Shown: one piece after another, positions 24,136 to 36,554 of the stretch
Layout: every line of letters begins with the position of its first letter
Position numbering within the stretch: position 1 is the first letter of the stretch
Assembly: GCA_002731275.1 (NCBI GenBank)
Contig: PCBK01000118.1
Location: 1-64,000, forward strand
Length of the DNA: 64,000 bases
From: Deltaproteobacteria bacterium
GTDB lineage: Bacteria; Myxococcota_C; UBA6777
Direction: 5' to 3'
Notes under the pieces: generated by a model
What the model was told of the DNA's origin: nothing
Seen by the model: only the letters and a program-made list of their open reading frames with translations
The model's database searches: none
Made by a program: the position numbers and the translations under genes

Positions 24136-24222
24136 ATCTCCATACCATCCAAATAATCAAAAGGGGAACCATAAGGGGAAAAAGACAGGGGAACAGGCGG
24201 AAGAAAGAAGGAAAACCGAGAA

Positions 24223-24869
24223 GGGCAAGTTCTCACCTGCCCCAACAGGCAACAGGCAGAAGAAAAAGAAAAAACCGAGAAGGGCAAGTGGCCACTTGCC
24301 CCAACAGCAACAGGCGGAAGAAAAAGAAAATGAAGGGCAAGTTGCCACTTGCCCCAACAGGCAGAAGAAAAACCGAACAACGTCCCATGAAAAGGGCAAG
24401 TTGCCACTTGCCCCAACAGCAGACAGGGAAAAAGCCAACTGATAGGGGGAGCCAACCGACAGAAAAACCAACAGGACCAGAGTCTACCCTAGCAGACAGA
24501 GAGCCAGACCTCCAGCAAACAAAGACAAAAGTAAGGGTAAGCGGAAACCTGCCCCAAGGTAAAGGTAAGGGCAAGTGGAAGCCTGCCCAGAGTAAGGGCA
24601 AGTGGAAACTTGCCCCAGAGCAAGGCAAGCGGAAACCTGCCCCAAGGTAAAGGTAAAGGGCAAGTGGAAGCTTGCCCCAGAGTAAGAGTAAAGTAAGGGC
24701 AAGTGGAAACTTGCCCCAGCAACAGCCAACCGGCCGAGAGTAAGAGTAAGGGCAAGTGGAAACTTGCCCCAAAGTAGTAAAGTAAAAGTAAGGGCAAGTG
24801 GAAACTTGCCCCAAAGTAGTAAAGTAAGGGCAAGTGGAAACCTGCCCCAGGGCAAGTGGAAACCTGCCC
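24223..24869. repeat. Array of 14 REP hairpins upstream of the RAYT gene
   Basis: Fourteen 20-21 nt hairpins of the form GGGCAAGT-N4-ACTTGCCC occur in about 650 bp, starting at 24223, 24282, 24335, 24394, 24535, 24569, 24596, 24623, 24658, 24697, 24750, 24792, 24828 and 24850. Two subtypes are visible. Units 1-4 lack the GGAA/GGAG centre; unit 2 is a perfect 20-bp palindrome, and spacers carry CAACAGGCAGAAGAAAAA. Units 5-14 have centre GGAA or GGAG and spacers rich in AGAGTAAG. Variants keep pairing potential at the stem. The last unit ends 24 nt before the RAYT start codon. The array lacks stop codons in several frames, giving spurious open frames on both strands. Confidence 0.95.
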
Positions 24870-24893
24870 AGAGTAACGAAGAGGGGAAAACAG

Positions 24894-25415
24894 ATGAAAC
24901 ACAATCGTCAATCGACACGTGCAAAAGGACACGACTACACCCAAGAATGCACGTACTTTATCACGCTTGTCACCTGGAGAAGGAGACATCTTTTTGGGGA
25001 GATTGTGGATGGGGAAATGCAAGTAAGCCCATGGGGTGAGATCGTCACAGAAGAATGGGAAAAATCCGCACAACTAAGACCATATATCCGGTTGGATGAA
25101 TACGTTGTCATGCCAGATCACTTCCACGCGCTGGTACACTTTGACAACACAACACAAACAGATCAACCAACTCAACCTTCGAACTCCCCATGTATACTGA
25201 ATGGTGCAAAGAAACAATCTCTGGGTGCGGTGGTTGGGAACTTCAAAGCATCTGTCACAAGAAGAATCCGTACACACACAGAAAACCCATACCTTCGTGT
25301 TTGGTTGCGGAACTATTACGACAGCATCGTCCATACATCGCGTGCATACCCAAGGGTACGACAATACATCAAAAACAACCCACAAAAATGGGAACACAAA
25401 ACAAAAACCCCCTAA
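24894..25415 (+). CDS. REP-associated tyrosine transposase (RAYT, Y1/HUH family)
   Basis: 173 residues from ATG at 24894 with GAGGGG upstream; an upstream in-frame start would lie inside the hairpins. HUH motif is PDHFHALVHF (His76 and His78). The catalytic Tyr lies in WLRNYYDSIVH (Tyr141 or Tyr142), and the closing RVRQYIKNNPQKW is characteristic of TnpA-REP proteins. Such enzymes bind and nick REP hairpins as single-stranded DNA. All active-site residues and the full length are present, so it is probably functional. The 14 hairpins directly upstream should be its substrates. Confidence 0.93.
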   Translation: MKHNRQSTRAKGHDYTQECTYFITLVTWRRRHLFGEIVDGEMQVSPWGEIVTEEWEKSAQLRPYIRLDEYVVMPDHFHALVHFDNTTQTDQPTQPSNSPCILNGAKKQSLGAVVGNFKASVTRRIRTHTENPYLRVWLRNYYDSIVHTSRAYPRVRQYIKNNPQKWEHKTKTP

Positions 25416-25534: not shown

Positions 25535-28500
25535 ATGAGACACATGCACAGAAGATACGTACAACCCCCTCCAAACGGCCTCTACGAACAAATCACTCAC
25601 ACGCTCATTTTATTGGCGCTCTTCGCAATGGGCTCATTTGGTTGTGGTGGCGAGAACAACAACAATAACAACAACGCACAAAATGATTGCAAAACATGCC
25701 CCGAACGCTGCCTCAAAGAAGGCGACGTCGCAGGAAGATGTGTCGCCTGCCTCAAAGATGAACACTGCCGCACAACAAACGCCCCAACACGTGTATGCAC
25801 AGACGACAAGCGCTGTGTCTGTGGGAGCGAAAAAGATTGCGCCGCCGGCGAAAGCTGTGACGAAGGCGTCTGCGTTTCATCCTGCCCGGCCAACCCTCCC
25901 TGCAAACAAGGTGACCGACGCTGCGCAACAAGCGCTTCTGACCAGTACCTTGAGTGCGCGCAAAACGACAAAGGCTGCTGGGAATGGAGCACTACGGCCA
26001 AAACATGTCCATCAGGAAACAAGTGTTCGGGACAAGGCGCATGTGGCCTCAACTGCGAAGCAGGCACAAATGCCTGTGGCACAACATGTGTCGATTTCAA
26101 AAAAGATACAAAACACTGTGGCGGGTGCAACAAAGTCTGCAAAAGCGGAGAAGTCTGTGTCGACGGTTCCTGTAGTATCACTTGCAAAGACAACAAAACA
26201 GCGTGCTCTGGCCAATGTGTCGACACACAAGACAATGACTACCACTGTGGGGCCTGTGGCAACCAATGCCCCGCAAAGAAAACTTGCTCCAAAGGCACAT
26301 GCGAACCCTGCACGACAACCAACATCCGCGAGATCTGTGGCAATAACAAAGACGACGATTGTGACGGCGAAATCGATGAAGCATCCGAATGCACATTCAT
26401 CAATGTCAACGGCAACATCGCTGACTACGCGGTCTTACCAGAAGGACAAATCTTTGTCGTCGCTGGAACCGATAAAAAAGACATCAAGGCGAGCTGTTAC
26501 AAAACTGATGGCTCGACACTTCGCGGGACATTCACGGCCGCGACCATCAAGGGCGAAGCAGCCGCAGGTGTATCCGTACGAAAGAACACTGCAAACAAAA
26601 CATTCCTGCTGAGCTGGGTCGAGTGGGCTCAAAAAAATACGGCACCAACCCAACTCTTTATGCAACGCTTCGACGCCTCATGTCAGCCCATCGGTGACGT
26701 GATCAAATGGCCCTACAACAACGCCACAAATCACTACACACATAGCATTACATTCGATGGACAAGGCAACTTCGCAGCTCTGTTCAACGATGAGAAGAAA
26801 CAACTACGCATCGTCTTTTACGACAAAGATGGCAAAAAACAAACAGACCTGACCGTCGAAACAGGTGACACACTCAAATGTCCAGGGGGCACATATGGGG
26901 TCCATGTCGTGATGGACCCCACAGGCGCAGGGATGGTTTCATGTCAAAAACATTCAGGAGATGCTGTGTATTATAGACGCTTCTCTGCAAACCACACCTT
27001 CACAGACACAGGTCTCCAAGAACTCCCAGGCTCCATCAAAAACAGCTCCTGGTACAAGAGCCATGCCCTCGGTATCAATGACAAAGGTGAATCCGTACTC
27101 TACTGGCAAGCCAATAACAAAAAACAAAATCTCGCGACGTTCTTTGGAAAGGACGGTAAAGCCACTAAGTCCGATGTCCTGATCACGACATTCGTAGGAT
27201 CCGGATATGATGGTTTTCGCTATGAACACCAAGAGCTCCCACTGATCGGTAGTGACTTCATCCTGAGAAGCACTCCAAGACAAGCCCGTGATATCCCCAT
27301 CTGGTACCGATACACAGCAGATGGAACACTCGTGAGCGCGCTACGTGGCGCATTTCAGCCCTGGCTACTGCGAACAAACGGGAAGCAAGCCTACATCGTG
27401 GAGAACAGAACCATTAAGCCCATAAACTTCGACAGTGGAATCGGCCTCTGTGGAAACCAACCATGTCTCTGCAAACCCAACAGCACACGAACATGTTACA
27501 ACGGTGGCAGCTCTTCCAATGTACGCGGCACGTGTAAAACGGGCATACAAACGTGCCAGGCCGATGGACTCGGCTGGAGCACATGTAAAGATGAAATCCT
27601 CCCAGCACCAGAGATCTGTGGCAATCAAAAAGACGACGACTGCGACGGCAAAGCCGACGAAGACTGTGATGGCTCCAAAGATATCAGTGTTCCAGGAATC
27701 ACCGACTTCACAGTATCAGACAAAGGCGACATCGCCGCGATTCACTGGACCCAAAAAGCACTCTTAGGGTACTGCTTTGCTCCTGATGGAAAGGTCAAAC
27801 GCAGCACCTTCAAGATCAGCGAACGCTCAAAGAGGATCGTCTCTCCTATCATCAAAATGTCACGAAATGGCCAATATATAGTCGTCATGTGGCGAGGAAC
27901 AGGACCGTACACAGAGACGAACTATCGTATCTACGCACGCTTGTACAAAGGTGATTGCACCCCCATTACAGACACCATTGAGTTGACCAACAAACAAAGT
28001 CGAGAGTGGTACGACGCCGCAATCGATAACAAAGGGCAATTCTCCCTGGTCTACTACAATGAAGATGCCCTCCTCACCTGGCGACGATATGACAACACAG
28101 GCACACTCACAACACCAGCAACAGCCCTCGAAAAGCTCGACGCAAATAACAGCCGCAAAAAATGCGTACACATGATCCATATTGCAGTCTCATCTTCAAA
28201 CGGAAATGGTGTCGTATCGTGTCAGAACCATTCATCCAACCCCATCTATTACAAACGCTTTGATGGAACCGGTAAGCTGCTCGATGACGCTCTCGTCGAA
28301 GTCAAGGACACCAAAAGTAACAGCTCCTGGTACGCAAGCCACCTTCTCGGTGTCAACGACAAAGGGGAGTTTGTGATTGAATGGCAGAGTAGCTACCAAA
28401 AGACCTTCTTTGCACACTTTTACGCGGCCGATGGAACGCTCACAAAATCCCTAACTGTCGGTACAGCAATGGATCAAATTTTTGATGCTTTCCGCTTCGC

Positions 28501-28723
28501 CAATATCGATGTTGAGCTGCTCGGCGATGACTTTGTTCTCCGAGATGGTGGCAATCGAACCGCTGCCGTCACGTGGTATCGATACACTCCCCAAGGGGTC
28601 AAGAGCACAAAAGCCACGATGGACGTAAAGACATACCAACGAAACAGTCTCCGCATTCGTAACGGAACATCCTATATCATCGACGGAAAATACATCCGTG
28701 TAGGTACCATCACCTTTAAATAA
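25535..28723 (+). CDS. Large Cys-rich MopE-type lipoprotein with an internal duplication
   Basis: 1062 residues from ATG at 25535 (a second ATG is 9 nt on). Lipobox MGSFGC puts the lipid Cys near 37, followed by a Gly-Asn linker. The Cys-rich region (about 45-270) contains EB-like units and CGGCNKVCKSGEVC. A MopE-type motif CGNNKDDDCDGEIDE sits near 270-285 and a second, CGNQKDDDCDGKADE, near 690-705. Each introduces a domain of about 340 residues, and the two are clear tandem copies, sharing for example SSWYxSHxLGxNDKGE and RYTxxGxxxS near their ends. The domains look like beta-propellers. Function unknown; probably a surface-exposed binding or adhesion protein. Confidence 0.78.
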   Translation: MRHMHRRYVQPPPNGLYEQITHTLILLALFAMGSFGCGGENNNNNNNAQNDCKTCPERCLKEGDVAGRCVACLKDEHCRTTNAPTRVCTDDKRCVCGSEKDCAAGESCDEGVCVSSCPANPPCKQGDRRCATSASDQYLECAQNDKGCWEWSTTAKTCPSGNKCSGQGACGLNCEAGTNACGTTCVDFKKDTKHCGGCNKVCKSGEVCVDGSCSITCKDNKTACSGQCVDTQDNDYHCGACGNQCPAKKTCSKGTCEPCTTTNIREICGNNKDDDCDGEIDEASECTFINVNGNIADYAVLPEGQIFVVAGTDKKDIKASCYKTDGSTLRGTFTAATIKGEAAAGVSVRKNTANKTFLLSWVEWAQKNTAPTQLFMQRFDASCQPIGDVIKWPYNNATNHYTHSITFDGQGNFAALFNDEKKQLRIVFYDKDGKKQTDLTVETGDTLKCPGGTYGVHVVMDPTGAGMVSCQKHSGDAVYYRRFSANHTFTDTGLQELPGSIKNSSWYKSHALGINDKGESVLYWQANNKKQNLATFFGKDGKATKSDVLITTFVGSGYDGFRYEHQELPLIGSDFILRSTPRQARDIPIWYRYTADGTLVSALRGAFQPWLLRTNGKQAYIVENRTIKPINFDSGIGLCGNQPCLCKPNSTRTCYNGGSSSNVRGTCKTGIQTCQADGLGWSTCKDEILPAPEICGNQKDDDCDGKADEDCDGSKDISVPGITDFTVSDKGDIAAIHWTQKALLGYCFAPDGKVKRSTFKISERSKRIVSPIIKMSRNGQYIVVMWRGTGPYTETNYRIYARLYKGDCTPITDTIELTNKQSREWYDAAIDNKGQFSLVYYNEDALLTWRRYDNTGTLTTPATALEKLDANNSRKKCVHMIHIAVSSSNGNGVVSCQNHSSNPIYYKRFDGTGKLLDDALVEVKDTKSNSSWYASHLLGVNDKGEFVIEWQSSYQKTFFAHFYAADGTLTKSLTVGTAMDQIFDAFRFANIDVELLGDDFVLRDGGNRTAAVTWYRYTPQGVKSTKATMDVKTYQRNSLRIRNGTSYIIDGKYIRVGTITFK

Positions 28724-29037: not shown

Positions 29038-29316
29038 CACTTCGCTCCTGGCTGTAAAGAATCACCACACTCGGAATGTCGAGCTGAGGCATCACACTGC
29101 ACACTAGAAAACCAAATACGCGTTAATCATTGAAACAAAAAACGAAAAAGTACGATGATAGAAGTTCCCAAGTAGAGGAAAAAATAGGCATCAGATACAA
29201 GCCCTTCCAAAGCCCAAAATGAATAAAGAGACTCTCCCCTCGTCCAACTTCCCGTGTCCCAAACAGGATAGTTTGTAGGTCAACACCCAACTTTTCATAC
29301 CAAAGGAGAGCTACCC

Positions 29317-29778
29317 ATGAAACACATCTTATCCATCACCTTGTTGATGTTCGCAGCGCTGACTTTTACTGCACAAGACGCACAAGCTGGCAGAAAAAAG
29401 TGTCTCAAAAAATGCAGAAGCAAGTGCAACTCCCAAAGCAACAGCTGCAAGGGGACTTGTTTTCGCAACCTCGATCGATGCAAAATGGCGAAATATACAG
29501 CCCACAAAAAATGCATGGCCGTCTGTAAACGTCCTGGGCACACCAACCCCATCCGCTGTATCGAGAGCTGTAACAGCATCGGAAACGCACGAACCAAGCG
29601 CTGTCACAAAGCATACAAGAAGTGTAGTCGCCGCTGTAATATTCGCAAAAGATCCTGCAAAGCCCGTTGCAAAACCAAATGCCCCAAAAGGAAAAAGCTG
29701 AAGAAGAAAATCAGCAAAAGAAGCAAGCTCATCCAAAGAACACTCAAGCAAAAACTCGCCAAGCGTCGCAAAAAATAA
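29317..29778 (+). CDS. Secreted Lys-rich protein with a mirror-symmetric 16-cysteine ladder
   Basis: 153 residues, ATG with AAAGGAGAG upstream. Signal peptide 1-24 (ends AQA). The mature part holds 16 Cys at 29, 33, 37, 44, 48, 55, 66, 70, 81, 85, 96, 103, 107, 114, 118 and 122. Every Cys has a mirror partner: the pairs 29/122, 33/118, 37/114, 44/107, 48/103, 55/96, 66/85 and 70/81 all sum to 151, centred on the turn PGHTNP (73-78). Spacings are only 4, 7 or 11, which place all Cys on one face of a helix. The simplest model is an antiparallel helical hairpin held by eight disulfides, like an extended CX3C alpha-hairpin. Residues 123-153 are a Lys/Arg-rich tail. No family is recognised. Confidence 0.85.
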   Translation: MKHILSITLLMFAALTFTAQDAQAGRKKCLKKCRSKCNSQSNSCKGTCFRNLDRCKMAKYTAHKKCMAVCKRPGHTNPIRCIESCNSIGNARTKRCHKAYKKCSRRCNIRKRSCKARCKTKCPKRKKLKKKISKRSKLIQRTLKQKLAKRRKK

Positions 29779-32649: not shown

Positions 32650-32830
32650 CACAAACAGCGGCCTCAGCCCACAACACCAACGTGAGCAAAGGGAAACCGG
32701 TGAAATTCCGGTACGGACCCGCCACTGTAATCGGTCAAGCTCTTCTTTTTCGACCACTGTCTGCAACAAGCGATGGGAAGGCGGAAGAGACAAAGGCCGT
32801 AAGTCAGGAGACCGGTCAAGCGAGACATCT
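32650..32830 (+). promoter_or_regulatory. Cobalamin (vitamin B12) riboswitch
   Basis: Conserved core elements are in the right order and spacing: AAAGGGAAACCGGTGAAATTCC from 32688, then GGACCCGCCACTGTAATCGG at about 32715, and the B12 box AAGTCAGGAGACC at 32801-32813. These define the cobalamin riboswitch family that binds adenosyl- or other cobalamins and switches off B12 uptake or synthesis genes. The outer limits are approximate. It precedes a propeller lipoprotein and a TonB-dependent receptor, consistent with control of cobalamin uptake. Confidence 0.95.
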
Positions 32831-32833
32831 CTA

Positions 32834-32955
32834 CTATCCTCGGGACATGGGATAGGCGAGAAATCCTACAACATGTGTTCGCGACCCAAGACCTGACAAC
32901 GCGTTCCCATCCCCTGTGGGTTTCCCTGCCCTATCCCCAACAAACATGTTGGGAG
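32834..32955 (+). promoter_or_regulatory. Expression platform with a ribosome-binding-site hairpin
   Basis: CCCAACA-AACA-TGTTGGG (32936-32953) is a 7-bp hairpin that buries most of the ribosome binding site GGGAG (32951-32955), which lies 6 nt before the ATG. Upstream, CTATCC (32834-32839) pairs locally with GGATAG (32850-32855). The same strand GGGATAGG (32849-32856) can instead pair with CCTATCCC (32930-32937), which would compete with the ribosome-site hairpin. This fits translational control by the riboswitch. Pairings are seen in the sequence; the switching logic is inferred. Confidence 0.55.
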
Positions 32956-32961
32956 ACATTC

Positions 32962-34413
32962 ATGACACAACCATCCCCATCTCATGGCGCGAAACATCTC
33001 GCGTTTTTTATCCTTTTTTCGATCTGCTTGGCTTTTGCTCTCACCTCCACAACCACTGGTTGCTCTACCCCCGTCAACAACGAAACCACCAAAGACAGTG
33101 GTACACCTGACGAGTCCACAACCAAAGAAAAGGCCGAAGAGCCCACACAAGAAGAGACTGCCGAAGAACCCAAACAAGAAGAGCCCACACAAGAAGAAAC
33201 CGCCGAAGAACCAAAACAAGAGGAACCATCCAAAAACGACGCAGGTCCAGCGGATGACATCGTCAAAGAAGACCCACCCAAAGACGAACCCACACAACCC
33301 CAAGACCAGATGGCCTTTGTGCTCAGCCGTCAGGGACAGACAGGCTTCTTCGGAACCATCGACACGAAAACCCAAACCGCCAAAGTGCAGCTCGGCTCCA
33401 CTCACTCAGATGCCTTTATGCGCTATTGGAATGGTTACATCTTTGTCGTCAACAGACTTGGCGCAGATAACATTCAGGCCATGAATGCCAAAGACTTTTC
33501 TCTCGTAAGACAATACTCAACAGGTTCAAAATCCAACCCCTACGACATCGCGATCGTCGACAAAAACAAAGCATACATCAGCCGCTATGCCCTCGCGAGC
33601 ATCTTAATTGTCGAACCACTTACAGGGAAAAAACTCGGAGAAGTCGACCTCACAGACCTCATCGAGGTCGATGACACAAAAACCTGTGCAACGGATAACG
33701 AGTGCAGTGCATCCAAAAAATGTGTGAGCGGGAAATGTGCTCGTGATGGCATCCCAGAAGCCGGCCTCATGCATCTTTACAAGGACAAATTGTTTGTCCT
33801 CATCCAACGCCTTGATCGCAACCAACAATTCAAAGCATTTGATGGTTCCTACATCGCGGTCATCGACACCACAACAGATAAGGTCATCAAGAAGATTAAG
33901 ACAAAAGCCCAAAACCCCACAGCCCTATTTGTCGGAAGCGATCCCACAAAACTCTATGTGGGAGAGACAGGCAACTTCTCAAAACCCGACTTTTCACCAG
34001 ATCTCGACGGATACATCGAAGTCCTCGACTTGGAGAAGCAAGAGTTCACAGGTACAGTGCTCTCTGAGCAGGAGTTAGGCGGAAACATCGGAAGCTTCGT
34101 CATCGCAGGAACCACTGGATATGTCATCCGCACCAACGCGAAGTTCCAGACAGAGGTCATCTCTTTCGACACAAGTACGCAAAAAGTAGGCAAAACAGTC
34201 GTCTCAGCACCTTGTACGTCAACGACAGACTGCTACACCTTCTCGGACATCGCGTACAACAAAGTCCTCGGTGAGTTCTACATTGCAGATGGTTTGGCGA
34301 CAGCACCAGGTGTGCGTATCTTCGACGGCGCAACAGGCACAGAGAAGACCACCAAACCCATCGACATGAAGCTCCCTCCTGCGTCCATCTTCTTCTACCC
34401 CGTCCAACCGTAA
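32962..34413 (+). CDS. Riboswitch-controlled beta-propeller surface lipoprotein (BtuG-like role proposed)
   Basis: 483 residues from ATG at 32962 (GGGAG upstream). Lipobox near TTTGC gives a lipid Cys near 33. A linker of repeated EEPKQEEPTQEETA follows to about 90. The rest has about seven repeats of strands such as DIAIVDKNKAYISRY and VIDTTTDKVIKKI, as in YncE-like seven-bladed propellers. A small Cys-rich insert, CATDNECSASKKC, sits near 242-255. It is first in a cobalamin-riboswitch operon with a TonB-dependent receptor 11 bp behind. In Bacteroides the propeller lipoprotein BtuG captures B12 for BtuB. The gene order suggests the same role here; homology to BtuG itself is not shown. Confidence 0.75.
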   Translation: MTQPSPSHGAKHLAFFILFSICLAFALTSTTTGCSTPVNNETTKDSGTPDESTTKEKAEEPTQEETAEEPKQEEPTQEETAEEPKQEEPSKNDAGPADDIVKEDPPKDEPTQPQDQMAFVLSRQGQTGFFGTIDTKTQTAKVQLGSTHSDAFMRYWNGYIFVVNRLGADNIQAMNAKDFSLVRQYSTGSKSNPYDIAIVDKNKAYISRYALASILIVEPLTGKKLGEVDLTDLIEVDDTKTCATDNECSASKKCVSGKCARDGIPEAGLMHLYKDKLFVLIQRLDRNQQFKAFDGSYIAVIDTTTDKVIKKIKTKAQNPTALFVGSDPTKLYVGETGNFSKPDFSPDLDGYIEVLDLEKQEFTGTVLSEQELGGNIGSFVIAGTTGYVIRTNAKFQTEVISFDTSTQKVGKTVVSAPCTSTTDCYTFSDIAYNKVLGEFYIADGLATAPGVRIFDGATGTEKTTKPIDMKLPPASIFFYPVQP

Positions 34414-34424
34414 GGCCGTCTCTG

Positions 34425-36554
34425 ATGCGGTATCCTCTCCTATGGTGTTGCCTTCTGTTTGTGTTTGGTGCAACGGTTGACGCCAAAACCAACCCCACGC
34501 CCTCCAAGAAAAACACCCCAAAAAAGGCAACATCCCCCATCACGATCAAACCCATCGACGTCAAAAAAAAGAAACGCGTAGAAACACCCGAAGAAAAAGA
34601 ACCAACAGGTTTTGCGACCGTCATCGATCTGAGCAAACAACACCAGCGTGTGCGCTCTCTCGGTGAATCTCTCAGAGAGAGCGCAGGGGTCAATGCGCGT
34701 TCAACAGGAGGAACAGGCGCCTGGAGCGCCCTCTCCATCAGAGGCTCTTCCTCCTCACAGGTCCAGATTTTACTCGACGGTATCCCCCTCAATCACGGCG
34801 GAAGTGGCGCGATTAACCTCAGCGACCTGCCACTTGATACGCTCAAAGAAGCGGTCATCTACAGAGGCTTCGCGCCCGCACACTTAGGCGGCGCGATCGG
34901 GGGGGTCGTCAACCTCATCACGCTCTTTCCTCAGGAATCTTCGACCTTCCAAGCCAATATCACCGCAGGCTCCTTTGGGACGCTCAAAACAAATCTCTCA
35001 TGGGGAGGCAGACAAGGTCAGTGGGAATGGTTCTTACTCGCCCATTACATCGGCACAGAAGGAAATTTCCCATACTTTGACAACCACGGAACCCCCTTAC
35101 AGACAGAAGACGACTTACCTGACGCAGTAAGACAGAACAACCAAAACCACCTATTCTCAACGCTCGCACGTGCCGCCTTTCAACCCATCAAAAAACTCAA
35201 ACTCTCCCTCACCTACATGCTCGTCGGTCGAAATATGGGCGTACCAGGTGTCGGAAACTATCGTTCAGAAGAGGCGAGTTTTGGTTCAACAAGACACCTC
35301 CTCCAATTGCACGTTGCAGGCAAGCATCTCCCACTGGCAGGCCTTCGTTGGCAGAGCAGAGTGTATTTCATCCAACAACAAGAGGTGTTTAAGGACCTGC
35401 TAGGTGAGATTGGACTCGGTCGTCAGGATACCAATAACCACAGCCTCGTGGCTGGGTGGAAGTCTCTCATCCGCTGGGCGCCTGTGGCTTTTTGGGAAGG
35501 AACACTCAGTTTCCACGCCCGTAGAGAGAGCTTCCAACCCAAAGATGAGCTACAACCCACACTGGAACAACCAGAGCGCTCAAGATGGTCGCTTCAACCG
35601 ACTCTACAGAGCTTGTTTTACCTGTGGGATGAACGGATCTCGATCATTGCAAGTGGTCAATTAGAATACCTTTGTACACCTGCACTTCCAGTCCCTATCA
35701 TGCCGGGCTTCCAGCCAGAAGAAGAGACCATGTTGTTACCGATAGGCCGAGCTGGACTGCGCATTCAGCCCTGGTCATTTGTCCTCGTCCAAGGCAACGT
35801 CGGACGTTATGTGCGTCCTCCCACGTTTTGGGAACTTCACGGAGACAGAGGGATCACGATCGGTAATCCAAGGCTCAAACCAGAAGTCGGCCTCAGCATG
35901 GACGCAGGGGGTGTGCTCCAATTCAAGAAGCTCGGAATCTTACGAGAGGTCCGCTTTGGGTACGCCTTCTTTCATACACAAAGTACTGATCTGATAAGAT
36001 TCATCCAAAACTCCCAACAGACAGCGATCGCGGTCAACATCTCAGAGGCCCATATCACCGGTCATGAACTGCAAGCTCGCGTGAATATCGCAGACATATG
36101 GCATCTATCTGCTGATATCACATGGATGGAGGCTATCAACCAGTCGGAGATTGTCGCGGAAAACGGAAAACAACTCCCTGGCCGTCCGCTCTGGGAGGTC
36201 TCCATACGAAGCGACATCACACTTTCATGGGGACGATTGTTTTATTCTTACACAGGCTTAGGTGGAAACTACCTGGACACAGCGAACCTACAAGAGCTCG
36301 CACCTCGACACATTCACAACCTTGGTCTCACCATCTCGCCCATCAAACTTGCCCGCGCACTCGGGAGTACATTCCCTTGGCATCACCTTAGATTGACACT
36401 TGAGGTCAAAAATATCCTCGATCAACGTGTCGCTTTTGTCCCTTTACGTCCCCCTCTTCCAAACATCAAGGAGATCAAGCAAGCACTCTCAGATTATGGT
36501 GGGTACCCCTTGCCAGGGCGCTCATTCTACATCTCTATTCAATGGAAATTGTAA
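34425..36554 (+). CDS. TonB-dependent outer-membrane receptor, probably for cobalamin
   Basis: 709 residues, ATG at 34425, 11 nt after the propeller gene. Signal peptide 1-20 (ends VDA), then a Lys/Pro-rich linker (25-65). The plug domain follows with SLGESLRESAGVNARSTGG, ALSIRGSSSSQVQILLDGIPLN and GAIGGVVNLIT (about 80-165), all typical. The remaining 540 residues alternate aromatic beta strands for the 22-strand barrel. The last residue pattern (FYISIQWKL) ends in a hydrophobic residue as barrel proteins do. Riboswitch control marks cobalamin or a cobamide as the likely ligand. No BtuCDF transport genes lie in the window. Confidence 0.9.
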   Translation: MRYPLLWCCLLFVFGATVDAKTNPTPSKKNTPKKATSPITIKPIDVKKKKRVETPEEKEPTGFATVIDLSKQHQRVRSLGESLRESAGVNARSTGGTGAWSALSIRGSSSSQVQILLDGIPLNHGGSGAINLSDLPLDTLKEAVIYRGFAPAHLGGAIGGVVNLITLFPQESSTFQANITAGSFGTLKTNLSWGGRQGQWEWFLLAHYIGTEGNFPYFDNHGTPLQTEDDLPDAVRQNNQNHLFSTLARAAFQPIKKLKLSLTYMLVGRNMGVPGVGNYRSEEASFGSTRHLLQLHVAGKHLPLAGLRWQSRVYFIQQQEVFKDLLGEIGLGRQDTNNHSLVAGWKSLIRWAPVAFWEGTLSFHARRESFQPKDELQPTLEQPERSRWSLQPTLQSLFYLWDERISIIASGQLEYLCTPALPVPIMPGFQPEEETMLLPIGRAGLRIQPWSFVLVQGNVGRYVRPPTFWELHGDRGITIGNPRLKPEVGLSMDAGGVLQFKKLGILREVRFGYAFFHTQSTDLIRFIQNSQQTAIAVNISEAHITGHELQARVNIADIWHLSADITWMEAINQSEIVAENGKQLPGRPLWEVSIRSDITLSWGRLFYSYTGLGGNYLDTANLQELAPRHIHNLGLTISPIKLARALGSTFPWHHLRLTLEVKNILDQRVAFVPLRPPLPNIKEIKQALSDYGGYPLPGRSFYISIQWKL

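Follow-up and report, generated by a model that had tools for sequence, protein, structure and literature searches.

A secreted-looking bacterial protein with sixteen mirror-symmetric cysteines, predicted to fold as a disulfide-zipped helical hairpin

The locus and its protein

The window analyzed here, meaning the whole 64,000-nucleotide stretch (contig PCBK01000118.1, positions 1 to 64,000 of the forward strand), belongs to assembly GCA_002731275.1 of a Deltaproteobacteria bacterium, a genome of 10.75 Mb in 200 contigs. The gene of interest, which we refer to as the Cys-ladder gene, has the following features.

29303..29308, + strand: ribosome-binding site AAGGAG, 8 nt 5' of the ATG (sequence reading)
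29317..29778, + strand: Cys-ladder gene, an ORF of 153 aa with an ATG start, secreted-looking
29317..29388, + strand: signal-peptide-like N-terminus, residues 1-24, ending AQA/G (sequence inspection, no predictor)
29401..29526, + strand: arm 1, residues 29-70, eight Cys in a CX3CX6 (11-residue) register (Cys positions and AlphaFold model)
29491..29493, + strand: Lys59, an unfilled Cys site on arm 1 of the 11-residue register (59 + 92 = 151)
29527..29556, + strand: turn, residues 71-80 (KRPGHTNPIR), mirror axis at 75.5 (Cys positions and AlphaFold model)
29557..29682, + strand: arm 2, residues 81-122, eight Cys mirroring arm 1 (Cys positions and AlphaFold model)
29590..29592, + strand: Arg92, an unfilled Cys site on arm 2 and the partner of Lys59 (sequence register)
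29683..29775, + strand: basic tail, residues 123-153, with 18 K/R of 31 (sequence; helix 126-151 in the model)

The N-terminus, MKHILSITLLMFAALTFTAQDAQA, was judged signal-peptide-like by inspection. Composition counts gave 50 Lys and Arg with only two Asp and Glu in the mature part of the protein, and 18 with none in the tail. We describe the product as small, very basic and apparently exported. The first-pass annotation had called it a secreted protein with a basic tail; the signal-like start and the Lys/Arg tail are both present, and secretion itself is an inference.

Other features of the window were recorded as separate observations. A 20-nt palindrome (GGGCAAGTGGAAACTTGCCC type) is repeated 11 times or more at 24150-24890, just 3' of a tRNA-Leu, and the ORF beside the array (24834-25415, +) encodes a Y1 transposase (PF01797, E 7e-7); the two are likely a REP array with its RAYT. 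At 32691-36554 (+) a Cobalamin riboswitch (RF00174, 79 bits) precedes the genes for a DUF5074 lipoprotein and for a TonB-dependent receptor, a set that is likely a B12 uptake operon. Both assignments are inferred from sequence alone. The product of 25535-28723 (+) resembles a lipoprotein; it is Cys-rich, 1062 aa long, and contains repeats of STIG1 type together with a metal motif like that of MopE.

The cysteine spacing is an exact palindrome

The 16 cysteines occupy positions 29, 33, 37, 44, 48, 55, 66, 70, 81, 85, 96, 103, 107, 114, 118 and 122. Their gap list, 4,4,7,4,7,11,4,11,4,11,7,4,7,4,4, reads the same in both directions, and 8/8 mirror pairs sum to 151; these claims of the first-pass annotation held exactly on recount. 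The null for a single-protein mirror test was taken as random reorderings of that protein's own Cys gaps, under which an exact palindrome has a probability of 105/225225 = 4.7e-4 (4.5e-4 by simulation). Seven consecutive gap pairs are mirrored in the Cys-ladder ORF and two in the runner-up among the 144 open frames of the window with at least six cysteines, making it the only such mirror frame in the 64-kb window.

One explanation is that the mirror is an accident of a low-complexity CX3CX6 repeat and has no structural meaning. In its favor, uniform repetition of CX3CX6 yields a palindrome trivially, and the K/R/C-rich sequence is of low complexity. The palindrome observed here is not automatic, however, because the gap list is not a simple periodic repeat, and the value of ~4.5e-4 was obtained within the protein's own gaps. 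Further evidence against an accident comes from other proteins and is given with them below.

Each arm follows a spacing rule that extends the original claim, an 11-residue repeat (CX3CX6) in which eleven residues correspond to three helical turns. The register sites are 33, 37, 44, 48, 55, (59), 66 and 70 on arm 1 and 81, 85, (92), 96, 103, 107, 114 and 118 on arm 2, with the sites in parentheses unfilled. Residues 59 and 92, where the register is empty, add up to 151, the extra cysteines 29 and 122 pair likewise, and the gap and the addition are therefore each matched across the hairpin. A single matched empty site is weak evidence alone, being expected 1 in 9 times by chance; it becomes strong evidence because matched gaps recur in other proteins.

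Predicted fold and rung geometry

Structure prediction of the Cys-ladder protein was carried out with AlphaFold2 on the single sequence, without a homologue alignment. Helices span residues 13-70, 78-121 and 126-151 in the model, and the block means of pLDDT are 84-97 across the hairpin; two models agree (82.6 overall) and three of the five are poor (57-59). The monomer is predicted to fold back on itself into a hairpin of two antiparallel helices, turning at the mirror axis. The PGHTNP turn that had been proposed for the center of the protein corresponds to residues 73-78, which straddle the axis at 75.5.

The AlphaFold output gave no coordinates, and the pairing of the rungs was checked solely with our own two-helix geometric model. 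A simple fit of coiled-coil parameters placed the eight mirror pairs at Cβ-Cβ distances of 3.3-4.8 Å, with the seven inner pairs at 3.8-3.9 Å and the helix axes ~9.4 Å apart. The mirror pairing fitted with an rmsd of 0.56 Å for eight rungs and 0.00 Å for the seven inner rungs, and register-shifted pairings were worse (1.2-2.0 Å). Two features fit less well. The end rung, 29-122, lies off the stripe and can be accommodated only when distorted (4.8 Å), and Lys59 opposes Arg92 at the position of the missing rung, which counts against the ladder reading. Searches with Foldseek and VIA-align returned nothing beyond long helices of a generic kind (best E 0.65, Z 10), under the level that is informative for helical models.

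The two antiparallel helices and eight disulfides claimed by the first-pass annotation are thus supported by the AlphaFold hairpin and the geometric model, and its structure-prediction test brought no refutation, with the reservation that the pairing comes from the geometric model only. We consider it very likely that the protein forms two long antiparallel helices stapled by eight disulfides; the helices are predicted by the model, and the disulfides are inferred, none having been measured.

Relatives in the same family preserve the mirror and vary the ladder

The source genome was compared with four relatives, all of the same family. A BLAST search of 60 genomes with the Cys-ladder protein gave only chance-level matches, none with E < 0.009 except itself, and no match was found in viral contigs. 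No orthologue was found in the four family relatives, even at the matching beta-lactamase locus of the sister genus; this syntenic locus was recognized by the beta-lactamase neighbor, which is 62% identical, and is without the Cys-ladder gene.

A search by cysteine pattern recovered roughly twelve further Cys-ladder proteins that look secreted, within the same family. The patterns specified the Cys spacing of one arm and the 11-residue Cys ladder, and left the second arm out of the query. The mirror order of the relatives' own gaps gave a Fisher combined p of ~1e-14 with the window protein excluded; individual values were strong for G (5e-5), H (1e-4), I (3e-4) and K2 (4.5e-4) and weak for J1 (0.10) and L (0.33). 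Relative L109 likewise ends in a Lys/Ala/Pro tail. The same Cys-rich protein occurs in relative G002 and in Myxococcota bacterium MAG.451 (JAKLKB010000089.1). As a further observation, L067 (G003:C49) is a 400-aa protein in which three SLRSWKGDYLHRPN-type repeats precede a partly mirrored Cys-ladder domain.

The homologues of paralogue B were found by BLAST and not by Cys pattern. Read from the turn outward, arm by arm, the gaps are 4,7,4,7,11,10,18 / 4,7,4,7,11,13,17 in paralogue B itself, 4,7,11,10,18 / 4,7,11,13,18 in L265 and 4,7,11,11,10 / 4,7,11,11,13 in L271. The mirrored cores differ in length (4,7,4,7,11 in B, 4,7,11 in L265 and 4,7,11,11 in L271), and in these homologues a rung gained or lost on one arm is gained or lost on the other as well. 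Paired rung loss is a direct test of disulfide pairing without a structure. Relatives retain the mirror while the length of the ladder differs, so the homologue test set out in the first-pass annotation also brought no refutation. This comparative evidence is the decisive support for the mirror-pairing reading.

Ladders in other bacteria

Named genomes were scanned, to a limited extent, with a five-rung pattern. Most matches were out-of-frame or simple Cys repeats; real secreted proteins of unrelated bacteria were also among them. L211, a Nevskiaceae PilY1, has 28 Cys with 14/14 mirror sums equal. L252, a Stagnimonas PilY1 homologue, has 18 Cys in an exact palindrome of ~9 rungs, and L235, an Acidobacteriota M19 peptidase with a basic C-terminal domain, also has 18 Cys in an exact palindrome. 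In both L252 and L235 there are 11-residue irregularities outside the pattern-selected part, and they are matched on the two arms. L210, a Stagnimonas aquatica PilY1 that is 47% identical to L252, contains 36 Cys with 16/17 gaps mirrored and arms of 4,11x5,9-or-7,11,11,7,4,7,4,7,4,7,4; its hairpin was not selected by the search, because the pattern matched only the other strand. Four-rung lipoprotein versions occur in other genomes, where the symmetry was imposed by the search pattern.

With the family relatives also mirror-ordered, independently of the window protein, and with the matched irregularities of L252 and L235 lying beyond what the search selected, an accidental mirror is all but excluded.

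The PilY1 homologues L210, L211 and L252 (Stagnimonas/Nevskiaceae) carry hairpin inserts of ~18, 14 and ~9 rungs, the same protein with different lengths. The L252 hairpin folded alone was helical, at a low confidence of 52.9. The ladder module occurs in fusions with PilY1 and with peptidase M19, as expected for a stiff spacer. The PilY1 inserts and the L235 domain have the CX3CX6 lattice and the mirror in common with the window protein; they carry 9 to ~18 rungs and are fused to large proteins, whereas the window protein is free-standing, and homology between them is not shown. Lipoproteins L121, L122 and L130 are acidic and the PilY1 inserts are rich in Ser/Thr/Asn, so the class is not uniformly basic. 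The mirror Cys pattern thus spans 4 to ~18 rungs across bacterial proteins, with shared ancestry or convergence undecided, and the eight-rung ladder that the first-pass annotation did not recognize is one member of a wider class rather than a singleton. A distant array was also noted in Candidatus Equimonas faecalis (L216, minus strand, 1664-2305), a secreted-looking protein with a long CX3CX6 array and no visible turn.

A covalent antiparallel dimer, in which the mirror pairs form between two extended-helix molecules without a hairpin, would also satisfy the mirror sums, since these equally permit inter-chain pairing, and the array of L216 has no obvious turn. Against this, the axis of the window protein falls on the helix-breaking PGHTNP turn and AlphaFold2 folds the monomer back, and in L211 and L252 too the turn at the axis contains Pro and Gly (CLPGALGNAC). 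We regard the dimer as very unlikely and retain the single-chain hairpin.

Proposed mechanism and function

In the mechanism that we propose, a Sec-type signal would export the Cys-ladder protein, and its two antiparallel α-helices would pack so that the stripe on which they face each other holds every cysteine. After export, disulfides would form between C29-C122, C33-C118, C37-C114, C44-C107, C48-C103, C55-C96, C66-C85 and C70-C81, through periplasmic oxidation by the encoded DsbA-like/VKOR machinery. The genome encodes a VKOR domain adjoining a DsbA-like domain, plus other DsbA-like domains; if the proposal is true, ladder proteins would be ready substrates for VKOR/DsbA oxidation in these bacteria. 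Separately, we noted an unusual arrangement of several tandem DsbA-like domains (PF01323) in each of two open frames, G000:C1:18739-21887 (838 codons) and G000:C36:6929-10156 (1167 codons).

The product would be a stiff, protease-resistant rod of ~6-7 nm, estimated from ~42 residues per arm x 1.5 Å, with a strongly cationic surface and a cationic C-terminal helix. The most likely role of such a rod would be structural: LPS, DNA or acidic polysaccharide, as polyanions of the envelope or extracellular matrix, would be bound and thereby held or spaced. We favor polyanions because of the net charge, the basic tail and the Lys/Ala/Pro tail of L109. Taken by itself, this function is the more doubtful element, an inference without direct binding evidence that we rate somewhat below even odds. 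For the reading as a whole, a disulfide-zipped secreted rod that binds polyanions, we estimate a probability of about 0.62; its disulfides, secretion and function are inferred, and what the computations show is the mirror pattern, the predicted hairpin, its geometric feasibility and mirror-preserving evolution in relatives.

The main functional rival is a cationic antimicrobial or bacteriocin-like protein, whose stapled hairpin and basic amphipathic tail would attack the membranes or walls of competitors, as in plant α-hairpinins. The extreme positive charge (K+R 50, D+E 2), the fit of the core CX3CX10CX3C to the α-hairpinin motif (PMC11591084), the signal-like N-terminus and the large, fast-diverging set of relatives are consistent with it. 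On the other hand, no immunity or export gene was recognized beside the Cys-ladder gene, the protein is far larger than α-hairpinins, and not all class members are basic. We consider this alternative unlikely. The wall-binding, DNA-binding or antimicrobial role suggested in the first-pass annotation remains a guess, with no functional data.

A bolder reading extends the disulfide-zipped rod to the whole class. We lean toward the view that these proteins represent an undescribed, extendable building block, helical hairpins zipped by 4 to ~18 mirror disulfides on an 11-residue lattice. On balance, the better supported option is that the block is used in two ways, as a free-standing cationic rod, as in the window protein, and as a rigid spacer within pilus-tip adhesins, lipoproteins and enzymes, and we would modestly favor its having evolved in steps of a whole rung, gained or lost simultaneously on the two arms. 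If this is true, rung number would set hairpin length, disulfide pairing could be read from sequence alone, and rods that are stiff and resist proteases would be naturally built in this way. Cys-rich secreted proteins of Myxococcota-like genomes that lack annotation would also be accounted for, as would the Cys-rich inserts of some PilY1 adhesins.

Comparison with known systems

The window protein has no sequence match in Pfam (E up to 10), NCBIfam, PHROG or the PDB, and in every member tested the ladder part falls outside the curated families of Pfam and NCBIfam. The ladder architecture is undescribed in the literature that we searched (hendecad Cys, disulfide ladders and Cys-rich PilY1), with incomplete coverage. 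One study (PMC13190605, 2026) counts PilY1 cysteines and predicted disulfides, and its relevant passages contain no description of a ladder.

The copper storage proteins Csp1 and Csp3 resemble the window protein in their Cys-rich inner helix faces and in having exported forms, raising the possibility of a periplasmic metal-thiolate store in which reduced cysteines lining a helix bundle would bind Cu(I). The CX3C repeats face the interior of the helix bundle, and exported copper storage proteins exist (PMC12510493, PMC7558416). However, Csp1 and Csp3 are four-helix bundles that hold Cu(I) on free thiolates with no requirement for mirrored pairs; our model is a two-helix hairpin with a tail helix. 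A copper store is disfavored because thiolate binding does not require matched Cys pairs, yet the missing cysteines here are matched across the arms. The genome also encodes oxidizing machinery, and the window protein matches nothing in Pfam or NCBIfam, although a short Cys-rich protein could escape such profiles. We consider a metal store very unlikely and keep to the disulfide-zipped hairpin.

CHCH (twin CX9C) and small Tim (twin CX3C) proteins are helix-turn-helix proteins with two mirror disulfides, oxidized after import into the mitochondrial intermembrane space. They have only two rungs, and their spacing and size are unlike those of the window protein, whose gap list lacks the 10-residue Cys step of a twin CX9C motif.

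The nearest known idea is the α-hairpinin, defined by CX3CXnCX3C or, in the 6C form, CX3CX3CXnCX3CX3C, with 4-6 Cys; a protein carrying at least three additional Cys beyond the core is excluded (PMC11591084). The segment C66X3C70X10C81X3C85 meets the core criterion CX3CX4-20CX3C, and the helix-loop-helix criterion is met by prediction only (H13-70, H78-121). With 16 Cys the window protein exceeds the limit and is not a member. Like EcAMP1 (2L2R) and Nigellin-1.1 (2NB2), it is modeled as an antiparallel hairpin with inter-helix disulfides and CX3C steps, and it is cationic, as α-hairpinins often are. α-Hairpinins are plant proteins with antimicrobial or trypsin-inhibiting activity and two to three rungs, whereas the window protein is bacterial, has eight putative rungs set by an 11-residue lattice, and bears its basic tail as a separate element; no sequence similarity between them was found. 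The principle of a hairpin with two to three rungs was thus known already; what would be new is an undescribed kind of rigid protein rod.
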